This document shows positions 9,236-29,078 of a DNA stretch of 64,000 bases, one piece after another. The DNA lies in the NCBI RefSeq assembly GCF_003545765.1, contig NZ_QXIO01000001.1, positions 1 to 64,000 of the forward strand, read 5' to 3'. Position 1 is the first letter of the stretch. The number at the start of each line of letters is the position of its first letter. The translations under genes were made by a program, and so were the position numbers. The notes beneath the pieces were generated by a model. That model saw only the letters and a program-made list of their open reading frames with translations. It did no database searches and had not been told where the DNA came from. The stretch is from Colwellia sp. RSH04. Its GTDB lineage: Bacteria; Pseudomonadota; Gammaproteobacteria; Enterobacterales; Alteromonadaceae.

Positions 9236-9266
9236 TATTAACCTTTATGAAGTTTTTATAGACTAG

Positions 9267-9334
9267 CTATTTTACTGAGCTCTCTATTTTTCTGTACTAT
9301 CTATTTTTCTATACTACCTATTTTACTGAAGTAT
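9267..9334. repeat. Four tandem 17-bp units
   Basis: Units begin at 9267, 9284, 9301 and 9318: CTATTTTACTGAGCTCT, CTATTTTTCTGTACTAT, CTATTTTTCTATACTAC, CTATTTTACTGAAGTAT. It is a short diverged minisatellite between the glutaredoxin-like gene and the AraC remnant. Confidence 0.75.
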
Positions 9335-9421
9335 CGGGCCTATACAAAGAAAAAATCATGCAAGTTATAATGATTCGGGCTCAATGACGACATTGCGAGA
9401 GCTATCTTTAGTCTTAGCTCT

Positions 9422-25923: not shown

Positions 25924-26453
25924 AATAAAGGAACTATAATAAAGGTAGATATTGCTCGCTATGTTATCACTGCTACAAACAATACCCAAGCGAGTAGCAA
26001 AGTAAATATACGATAGAGTAATACCAATCCGCATAAGAAAGTGATCTCTTAGCGAGAATTTAAAGGCTTTTAGGCAAGGCATTGATTGATGATAATGGTT
26101 GTTCCCTTATCAAAATCAATAACGCAGCATATACGCCTTTAAAAATCGCCCTTTGGGAACAAATGAGCACCATGATAATTGCTCAAAATTTTCTCAATGT
26201 AGAATGACTATATTTTCGTAAATTTTGATTATTCTAATGTCGCTATTGCTGTTCTAAGTGATCACTTCTTTATGTGGAATGGTATAAGGCTCGGCAACTA
26301 TTTTTTACAATGTTATGACTGAAGTTGCTCCTGAAGTAATTTATTTGTCACATTTAACCTCATTCACTTGCATAGCGACAAAAGCCTAGTTATAGTGCAA
26401 CATTGCAATGGAACCGCGCTATATTATTAATTAACCTTGGGATTTTTGACAAA
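25924..26453. other. Divergent promoter region between ygfB and zapA
   Basis: 530 bases hold the start regions of both operons. No RNA gene, repeat or clear operator was recognised. Two frames extending from ygfB and zapA into this region are upstream read-throughs with no conservation expected. Confidence 0.4.
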
Positions 26454-26762
26454 ATGAGTCAACGAACAGTTGAAATTAATGTACTAGATCGTAAGCTTAA
26501 AGTGGCTTGTCCTTCAGGACAGGAAACCGCGTTGCTGTCTGCTGCAGAAGAACTCAGTAAAAGGTTAACCCTCTCAAGTAATGCAAAAGCCATTGCCACA
26601 CCTGAACAAACATTACTCATGACTGCTCTGAATTTAGCTAACGATTTATTGCAAGCCCAACAGCAATTGAAAGTTGAGCAACAAGAGAACCAAGAAAAAA
26701 TTGCGCTTTTACAAGCCACGATAGAACAAGCCTTAGCGCCATCGAATAATAAACGCGCATAA
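26454..26762 (+). CDS. zapA: Cell division protein ZapA
   Basis: Small FtsZ-bundling protein. MSQRTVEINVLDRKLKVACP starts the FtsZ-binding head and ETALLSAAEELSKRL follows. The C-terminal half is a long coiled coil (LLQAQQQLKVEQQENQEK). The upstream in-frame ATG at 26403 would add 17 residues unlike the family, so ATG 26454 is used (102 residues; E. coli 109). It is placed immediately before the 6S RNA gene, as in E. coli and many relatives. Confidence 0.92.
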   Translation: MSQRTVEINVLDRKLKVACPSGQETALLSAAEELSKRLTLSSNAKAIATPEQTLLMTALNLANDLLQAQQQLKVEQQENQEKIALLQATIEQALAPSNNKRA

Positions 26763-26834: not shown

Positions 26835-26840
26835 AAAAGT

Positions 26841-27020
26841 GTCTTCTGGGATGTTTGTATGTGAACTGTGTCCCTGAGCCGATAAGTTTTACCTTAGGGA
26901 ATTGACTATTAACTATTGTGCAGGCCCGGCATGTATCGGGAAGCCTACGGTTAGCATGATATTTCCGCCCTGAACACACGGTGTTCAGGACTATTGTGAG
27001 CTGCGGCATCTTGGAAGACA
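26841..27020 (+). ncRNA. ssrS: 6S RNA
   Basis: RNA that mimics an open promoter and binds sigma70-RNA polymerase in stationary phase. The ends pair (GTCTTCTGGGATG with CATCTTGGAAGAC). GTCCCTGAGCCGATA, GGGAAGCCTACGG and GAGCTGCGGCATCTTGG match conserved 6S positions. A GAACAC-ACG-GTGTTC hairpin sits in the 3' arm, where E. coli has a similar structure. It is located 78 bases after zapA, its standard neighbour. The usual next gene, ygfA, is missing; a repeat array made from the RNA's own 3' arm follows. Confidence 0.93.
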
Positions 27021-27636
27021 ACTACCTCTAACGTTACTCACTTCTCGACTCTAAACAATAATATTTCCGCGCTGCACCTAATAACACACGGTGTTCTGGA
27101 CTATTGTGAGCTGCGGCAAAGCTCAAACATCATTGGAAGACAACTACCTCTAATGTTACTCACTTCTCGACTCTAAACAATAATATTTCCGCGCTGCACC
27201 TAATAACACACGGTGTTCTGGACTATTGTGAGCTGCGGCAAAGCTCAAACATCATTGGAAGACAACTACCTCTAATGTTACTCACTTCTCGACTCTAAAC
27301 AATAATATTTCCGCGCTGCACCTAATAACACACGGTGTTCTGGACTATTGTGAGCTGCGGCAAAGCTCAACCATCATTAGATGACAACTACCTCTAATGT
27401 TACTCACTTCTCGACTCTAAACAATAATATTTCCGCACAGCACCTAATAACACACGGTGTTCAGGACTATTGTGAGCTGCGGCAAAGCTCAACCATCATT
27501 GGAAGACAACTACCTCAAACGTTATTCACTTCTCGACTCCAAACGATAATATTTCCGCGCTGCACCTAATAACACACGGTGTTCTGGACTATTGTGAGCT
27601 GCGGCATCTTGGAAGACAACTACCTCAAACGTTTTT
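26959..27636 (+). repeat. Tandem array of 122-bp units derived from the 3' arm of 6S RNA
   Basis: The unit starts ATATTTCCGC at 26959 (inside ssrS, 102 bp), then 27061, 27183, 27305 and 27427 (each exactly 122 bp) and 27549 (partial, to about 27636). Every copy contains ACACACGGTGTTC, CTATTGTGAGCTGCGGCA and GAAGACAACTACCTC, the 3' arm of 6S RNA. Copies 1-4 carry an insertion AAGCTCAA[A/C]CATCATT after GCGGCA that creates a TGAGCT...AGCTCA hairpin. The last copy lacks it and restores GCGGCATCTTGGAAGAC, the true 6S end. Copies at 27061 and 27183 are identical; 27305 and 27427 differ at a few bases. Confidence 0.92.
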
Positions 27637-27716: not shown

Positions 27717-29078
27717 TTACTCACTTACGTTGCTAACTACTGGGTTATCATCTTGCTCTGAAGTAACAAATTCTGGTCGAGGCATTTTACTTAACATGGC
27801 ATACAAATAAATTACGACTAGCGAAAGCACAGCACTACAAATAAACAAAGTAGATCCACCGAAATAATCCAATATCAACCCACCACCTAGTGGTGCAAAA
27901 GCAAAACCAAATTCATAGAAGGATGATGCGCCAAAATAAGCGCCACGAAGATGCTTAGGGGCAATTCGGTCAATATGAACATTCATCGTAGGAAAAAGTA
28001 TCGTTTCAGCCAAGCTCATGATAATCACTGCACCTATCCACCCCCAAAAAAGCGATACCGGATTTAACCCCATCCATAGCTGAGATATCGCTAATAATAC
28101 TAAACCTATTTGAATTCTAGCGATAAGTGAAATATGTGCCATCATTCTGAGCATTGCGAATTGCGTAGTAATTATCACCATCGCATTAGTAAAGATTATT
28201 GTTGATATAAGCATCAATAATTCAGGCACTTCAGCGCGGGTTAAGTATTGAATGAGCGAACTATCCATTTGCCCATAAATAAACATACAAATAATATTTG
28301 CCAAAATAAGGCATTGAAAAAGTTTATCTTGTCGTAAAATTTTACTAATCTCTTTAAAGCTAACGTTTTCTTTTTTGCCTTCTTCTTTTTTACTCTTTGC
28401 TTTATTTGCTTCACTGTTCAGTTTTACTGTTGTACTTACTTCTTTCTCTTTAATTTGAATAGCCTTGCTTGTTTCAATGGCAGCTTCTTGTTTCTCATGC
28501 TGATAAAAGCCCCACGATAATAAGCACAACAAAAACACAAAGGCCATGGCAGTAATATAAAAGCTTGATTGCTCACCTGTTAATCCCATCCAAACGCCAA
28601 CCATGGGGCCTACTGCACAGCCAACATTTACCACAAAATAAAGGGATTGCATGGCAAGCTCGCGCGTCTTACTGTCATCAATCATATCCCCTATTAATGC
28701 ACTAATTAGCGGACGCCATAACGCTGTCGCAATTGAACACAAAGTAATAACAATAACATAACCTTCAATATGATCTATTTCAGCCAACAAAGAGAAAGAT
28801 ATAATATAAAGCAACCCACTGAAATACATTAATTTCTTGCGGCCAATACGATCAGACAACGCACTACCAACAAAACTAATAAAGACCGAAACGATGGCTG
28901 CTACCGAAAGAATTAACCCGACTTCAGTGGCAGTAAGAGAAAACTTTTCATACAAGATAACAGCTAAGAAGGGCCACACCATATAAAAGCTGCCGCGAGT
29001 AATAAACGAGCCAAAGAGTAAGATCCACATTAACAATGGAAATTGCTTCATTCGACTTATTGAAACGTCACTAGACAT
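27717..29078 (-). CDS. Major facilitator superfamily transporter (MdtH-like)
   Basis: 453 residues with twelve predicted helices. Motif A between helices 2 and 3 is GSALSDRIGRKKLMYF. A charged cytoplasmic loop between helices 6 and 7 (about 200-245) is unusually long and lysine-rich (KSKKEEGKKENV). The second half includes GAYFGASSFYEFGFAFAPLG, the drug-antiporter type motif. Likely a multidrug or metabolite exporter; the substrate cannot be read. It stands alone where ygfA often lies, convergent with the ssrS array. Confidence 0.85.
   Translation of the reverse strand: MSSDVSISRMKQFPLLMWILLFGSFITRGSFYMVWPFLAVILYEKFSLTATEVGLILSVAAIVSVFISFVGSALSDRIGRKKLMYFSGLLYIISFSLLAEIDHIEGYVIVITLCSIATALWRPLISALIGDMIDDSKTRELAMQSLYFVVNVGCAVGPMVGVWMGLTGEQSSFYITAMAFVFLLCLLSWGFYQHEKQEAAIETSKAIQIKEKEVSTTVKLNSEANKAKSKKEEGKKENVSFKEISKILRQDKLFQCLILANIICMFIYGQMDSSLIQYLTRAEVPELLMLISTIIFTNAMVIITTQFAMLRMMAHISLIARIQIGLVLLAISQLWMGLNPVSLFWGWIGAVIIMSLAETILFPTMNVHIDRIAPKHLRGAYFGASSFYEFGFAFAPLGGGLILDYFGGSTLFICSAVLSLVVIYLYAMLSKMPRPEFVTSEQDDNPVVSNVSE

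Follow-up and report, generated by a model that had tools for sequence, protein, structure and literature searches.

The 6S RNA gene (ssrS) of Colwellia sp. RSH04 is followed by a real tandem array of its own 3'-end module, an arrangement that is genus-wide in Colwellia and for which a search of the open-access literature returned no description of such 6S tail repeats. Judged from its distribution among genomes, the array is an old feature and not a one-off accident. Our tentative reading, held with rather less than even confidence, is that this recombining 6S 3'-end module may act as an extended Rho-type tail, and neutral concerted expansion is considered nearly as likely. The window referred to below is the whole stretch of DNA analysed, 64,000 nucleotides from one contig of this strain.

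Five copies of the 3' arm follow ssrS at a spacing of 122 bp (Table 1), as an earlier sequence-only reading had proposed, and Tandem Repeats Finder placed the array at 27007-27606 with a period of 122, 4.9 copies, 96% matches and a score of 1102. The gene itself gave a full-length match to the 6S model at 88.2 bits, above the Rfam gathering score of 46.4. This was the single RF00013 match in the window; the units consist of the 3' strand only, while membership of the 6S family would need both closing-stem strands and the apical stem. Each unit runs from a bubble-strand start (ATATTTCCGC) through an altered hairpin region and the closing-stem 3' strand into a tail. Compared with unit 1 over 122 bases, unit 2 shows 0 differences, unit 3 shows 3 and unit 4 shows 9, bearing out the claimed identity of two copies. 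The hairpin-forming insert claimed for four units was likewise recovered, with TGAGCT-GCGGCAA-AGCTCA occurring exactly four times in the window, once in each of units 1-4, where it lies 3' of GCGGCA and has the potential to form a 6-bp hairpin of -7.1 kcal/mol. The true 6S ending recurs once in the array, in unit 5, in agreement with its reported restoration in the last copy. The altered left arm of the hairpin in the units, and the similar arrays in most of the Colwellia species examined, had gone unseen in that reading.

Table 1 Features of the ssrS locus and its array in the window.
Feature	Position	Strand	Basis or remark
ZapA family protein (zapA), upstream neighbour	26403..26762	+	Pfam PF05164, E 5.4e-16
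ssrS, 6S RNA	26840..27021	+	Rfam RF00013, full model 1-187
3'-bubble hairpin of native 6S, CCCTGAACACACGGTGTTCAGG	26968..26989	+	weakened or lost in units
First tail after 6S, 39 bases, C-rich, G-poor	27022..27060	+	sequence, composition
Unit 1: bubble-strand start, 3' arm with altered hairpin, insert 27107-27125, tail	27061..27182	+	
Unit 2, insert 27229-27247	27183..27304	+	identical to unit 1
Unit 3, insert 27351-27369	27305..27426	+	
Unit 4, insert 27473-27491	27427..27548	+	
Unit 5, without insert; true 6S ending 27603-27626, then array end	27549..27636	+	
MFS transporter, convergent downstream neighbour	27717..29078	-	Pfam PF07690, E 1.5e-43

Unit 5, used as query against the whole genome, gave six matches, all at ssrS, corresponding to the 6S arm and the five units. 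The gene ygfA usually lies downstream of ssrS; the sole ygfA-type match of this genome was found on another contig, away from ssrS, and the convergent MFS transporter gene begins about 80 bp past the array end. A promoter scan of the region detected no promoter for individual units, a weak negative given that the same scan also misses the 6S promoter. The window holds another tandem repeat at 9262-9335, with a 17-bp period, 4.4 copies and 75% matches. An assembly artefact is ruled out, as arrays also occur in single-contig genomes (G010, G014, G021, G188, G232 and G293).

We located 6S RNA in 37/39 Colwellia genomes, 36 of which were assessable after exclusion of G002, whose 6S is cut by a contig end. 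Array copies lie behind ssrS in 30 of these 36. This number comprises 27 genomes in whose fetched stretch one or more units score above 20 bits; G016, with six repeats of a shorter form each scoring below 12 bits; and G008 and G035, in which the contig ends within the first unit and more units open another contig, so that the joining is inferred. The array of G016 (L019) is built of alternating 72- and 80-bp repeats that carry the 3'-arm end only, with an insert. No units were found in the remaining six (G004, G007, G012, G025, G036 and G037), although a partial end copy remains in G004 and G012. Copy number varies from 1 to 5 and unit distance from 87 to 135 bp. It had been argued beforehand that absence of the array, with random copy number among strains, would make it a neutral expansion; at the species level this is not what is seen, the array being present in most species, though with varying copy number. 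When the unit consensus was searched in the 39 genus genomes, it matched at ssrS only, bar two contigs that start inside the array. Draft contigs break in or beside the array (G008:C3/C25, G035:C68/C161 and G002:C7), and copy number may therefore be underestimated in draft genomes. Inserts after GCGGC, splitting the arm end, recur in some units of the window and of G005, G010, G013, G015, G022, G027, G030 and G089. In several Colwellia, for example G003 (L031), G018 (L042) and G033 (L020), units open with an AT-rich inverted repeat (AAATATC-AGC-GATATTT type) that is absent from native 6S.

To follow the array beyond the genus, the last 90 nt of each 6S were compared with the next 1 kb at a cut-off of E 1e-4. 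A total of 177 loci from the genus, family and order were covered, being a fetched subset taken by score or for genus coverage and not every 6S locus, with loci excluded where 6S was cut or less than 80 nt followed it. A copy was detected behind 6S in 41 of the 177 loci and in none with the reversed arm as control (0/177); 26 of the 41 belong to Colwellia, 9 to other genera of the same family and 6 to g60, a genus of another family. 6S itself is present in 146/147 family genomes and 106/119 order genomes. Cognaticolwellia (g8) also has such copies, in 5/5 examined species. Further genera of the family with copies are g35 (2/2) and g26 (2/4), together with g52, in which 1/4 carries a weak copy below the cut-off. 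In g60, copies were recognised by inspection in 6/7. By eye the g60 units have no unit-specific sequence in common with the Colwellia units, suggesting that the g60 array is probably of separate origin and that such an array evolved twice. In the rest of the class, where 91/104 genomes have a 6S match, none of the 49 fetched loci showed a copy.

Loci with an array tend to have a convergent downstream gene, the ratio of convergent to same-direction neighbours being 22:12 with an array versus 44:85 without one (Fisher p 0.0016), with G089 counted as array and 5 loci dropped for want of a long frame. The association is confounded by kinship, loses significance when Colwellia (p 0.33) and the remaining loci (p 0.12) are taken apart, and is given no weight here.

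The units have evolved together with the 6S gene in front of them. For 58 of 59 units the 6S of the same species is closer than that of other species, with a mean identity of 0.868 versus 0.754, indicating concerted evolution and supporting expansion by recombination, which the sequence-only reading had suggested from the window alone. Many units share a segment that is missing from 6S, of the type CTCTAGAAAAGCAC, which replaces the left arm of the hairpin and is also found in g8. Between species whose 6S RNAs are 85-90% identical (66 pairs from 19 short-type genomes), this segment retains 0.68 identity versus 0.53 for shuffled sequence, while in the same pairs the tails (0.59 vs 0.59 shuffled) and the upstream flanks (0.55 vs 0.55) stay at chance. 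All 21 parsed genomes (77 pairs) gave a similar picture, with the segment at 0.65 vs 0.51 shuffled and the tails at 0.59 vs 0.58; 16/37 loci gave no unit on parsing, and the species pairs are not independent. In the closest pairs, with 6S at least 95% identical, the segment stands at 0.63 versus 0.70 for the tail (18 pairs), or at 0.77 versus 0.75 in the 9 short-type pairs. At this range the segment is not conserved better than the tail, so the constraint on it is modest.

The part of 6S that is altered in the units has a known role. Product RNA synthesis on gamma-proteobacterial 6S leads to formation of a 9-bp hairpin in its 3' bubble strand, and this hairpin is a major contributor to release from RNA polymerase (PMC8876501). 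The core of this hairpin was present in 37/37 of the Colwellia 6S RNAs found. Its left arm is altered in the units, and the window units fold there at -8.3 to -8.5 kcal/mol versus -13.4 in their own 6S; complete loss of the hairpin from the window units is thus ruled out, a weaker fold of about -8.4 kcal/mol remaining. Overall, 58/59 units have a weaker hairpin region than their own 6S, 48 of them by more than 5 kcal/mol, and the sole unit that is not weaker had a longer stretch folded. The mean is -13.3 kcal/mol for 36 native 6S RNAs versus -5.2 for the units, an earlier measure on stretches of unequal length having given -4.5 for 52 units. The same holds for g60, with -15.0 in native 6S versus -3.0 to 0.0 in 16 units.

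No consensus secondary structure was obtained for the 59 units. The alignment used for the consensus fold dropped columns held by few units, and thus the inserts, and single folds of the untrimmed units agree with it: compared with dinucleotide shuffles, the 59 untrimmed units have a mean z of 0.36 with 1 below -2, and 36 native 3' arms a mean z of -1.32 with 6 below -2. A self-structured small RNA was rejected on these grounds, and folding does not support the earlier suggestion that the array could give stable small RNAs.

Like the tail of 6S itself, the tails of the units are rich in C and poor in G. On the 6S strand, 60 spacers from Colwellia arrays contain 23.5% C and 5.4% G. The C/G ratio is 4.66 in the tails of 6S (36 tails), 4.56 in those of inner units (25) and 3.75 in those of last units (24), compared with 1.16 at 120-320 nt past the last unit (22) and 1.10 upstream. 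Where unit tails have moved away from the 6S tail of their own locus, the ratio remains at 2.88 (15 tails). Within the window, 26 intergenic stretches after stop codons have a C/G of 1.01, and C exceeds G there by at most 5 per 40 nt; the corresponding excess in the array is 11 for every tail up to the fifth and 5 for the last. In a simple scan of the 120 nt behind 6S, terminator-like sites were absent from 26 Colwellia array loci and from 14 other array loci, and such sites are also rare at array-less loci (0/6, 3/77 and 3/48).

A Rho loading site should be unstructured and G-poor, and ssrS of E. coli reportedly ends in a Rho-dependent manner, with 3' trimming of 6S (Chae et al. 2011). Rho is described as loading on C-rich RNA (PMC10670590). 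Given C-rich, G-poor and unstructured tails, a Rho-type tail is our preferred reading. On this reading the array is a tandem duplication, old and recombining, of the 6S 3'-end module (the closing-stem 3' strand and the C-rich, G-poor tail behind it), and transcription of ssrS would read through into it. It would thereby repeat an unstructured tail on which Rho may load and act, so that termination and trimming of the abundant 6S transcript would occur dependably ahead of the neighbouring gene, and this benefit would keep the array in place. The C-over-G tail is not confined to array loci, however. Behind array-less Colwellia 6S the C/G is 4.73 (8 loci as sorted, including G002, which is too short to count, and G035, later counted as array), and in the rest of the family, the order and the class 6S tails without an array have about 2. 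A single tail may therefore be enough, and the array may be no more than a by-product; six Colwellia species manage without units. In addition, gene conversion from the 6S tail can maintain tail composition within the array, and the diverged unit tails have drifted partway to background (2.88 vs 4.56), as relaxed constraint would likewise produce.

Neutral concerted expansion ranks close behind the Rho-type tail and, like it, falls short of even confidence. It holds that the 3' half of a quasi-palindromic RNA gene is duplicated again and again by slippage or by unequal crossing-over, that recombination with 6S homogenises the copies and that hairpin copies, unstable as DNA, are lost, with nothing being selected. 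The variable copy number and unit distance, the lack of structure in the units, the mere partial end copies in some species (G012 and G004), the segment that closest species pairs keep no better than the tail and the absence of a pairing constraint among substitutions (see below) are all consistent with this, as is the lack of a common reading frame, 32 unit distances falling into the classes modulo 3 as 16, 7 and 9. It is harder to reconcile with the presence of the array throughout most of Colwellia and in every examined g8 species, with a unit-specific segment that exceeds chance in more distant pairs where the tails do not, and with a C-over-G bias that persists in diverged tails; moreover, conversion from a functionless array would be expected to endanger 6S itself.

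The sequence-only reading had also proposed that extra 3' arms compete for the 5' arm of 6S or act as decoys. In that case pairing of the units with the 5' arm, whether in cis or in trans, would give a misfolded or slowly released 6S, with the release hairpin of the units weakened or gone; we regard this as unlikely. In two families the closing-stem 3' strand is mostly kept in the units while the release hairpin is weakened or lost, as this proposal would have it. Over 61 units, including partial ones, the duplex of unit and 5' arm averages -30.3 kcal/mol, compared with -23.3 after shuffling of the units, and in equilibrium folding the 5' arm was paired with a unit in 23/27 arrays, the last unit being chosen in 18, single-unit arrays counted. 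The native duplex, however, averages -37.2 kcal/mol and is stronger for 55/61 units, and co-transcriptional folding would be expected to favour the native arm. In a control on 22 shorter arrays, the 5' arm was taken in 19/22 cases by the real array, in 57/88 by shuffled sequence and in 36/44 by the array of another species; since shuffled downstream sequence also takes the 5' arm, arm-swapping is mostly non-specific. Substitutions point the same way. Among 235 distinct substitutions between units and their own 6S arm (15 gaps set aside), 187 (79.6%) fall at paired positions, which make up 73.7% of positions, so that changes do not avoid them, and pairs were kept in 59 of the 187 versus 57 expected with half transitions, or 38 expected with equal base changes. 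As substitutions do not preserve pairing, a decoy of the 6S 5' arm is unsupported.

A further reading appears highly improbable to us, namely that 3' arms whose release hairpin is weakened or removed were built up into a store independently in two families, and that RNA arm exchange in long precursors, or recombination in DNA, would draw on this store to supply slower-leaving 6S isoforms that tune the exit from dormancy in these marine bacteria. The least plausible of the readings, with hardly any weight left to it, takes the units as remains of integrative elements that used the ssrS 3' end as attachment site: as with attachment sites in tRNA genes, the copied block is indeed the 3' end of a stable RNA, but 50,697 phage and 72,556 plasmid records gave no match, the 87 to 135 bp between units leave no room for a gene, no element or integrase lies between the copies, and none were found elsewhere, the only matches off ssrS being the two contigs that start inside the array. 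A protein-coding tandem repeat was rejected as well, with unit distances in all classes modulo 3 and a 62-aa ORF across units that has no Pfam match.

6S RNA is among the best-studied bacterial RNAs, and the array offers a natural experiment on its ending, trimming and release, as well as an instance of concerted evolution between a regulatory RNA gene and its tail. The closest known arrangement is the E. coli tyrT locus, where tandem repeats carry the 3' end of tRNA-Tyr, with rtT RNA and a Rho-dependent terminator inside the repeats; our open-access literature search returned nothing on these repeats. Both loci have the 3' end of a stable RNA tandemly repeated directly downstream of its gene, which is what defines an rtT-type repeat, in a region of read-through that for ssrS is predicted here. 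An rtT-type array would further give a transcript processed from a read-through precursor and end in a Rho-dependent way; the observations on the ssrS array that bear on this are its tail composition and the scan for terminator-like sites. They differ in the length copied (about 46-75 nt of 6S versus about 19 nt of tRNA) and in unit distance (87-135 bp versus 178 bp) and, unlike tyrT, the ssrS array has the release hairpin weakened or lost in its copies and is genus-wide, in two families. The array thus adds a second case to the question of why stable RNA genes gather 3'-end repeats. Compared with the E. coli ssrS-ygfA locus, the window likewise has no intrinsic terminator close behind 6S, here by simple scan, whereas the E. 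coli locus is not known to carry repeats and has ygfA downstream in place of a convergent MFS gene. Second 6S RNAs, such as 6S-1/6S-2 of Bacillus and 6S2 of Legionella, are also additional 6S-derived or 6S-like sequence in the genome; they are, however, whole and separate 6S RNAs, whereas the Colwellia units comprise the 3' strand without a 5' arm.
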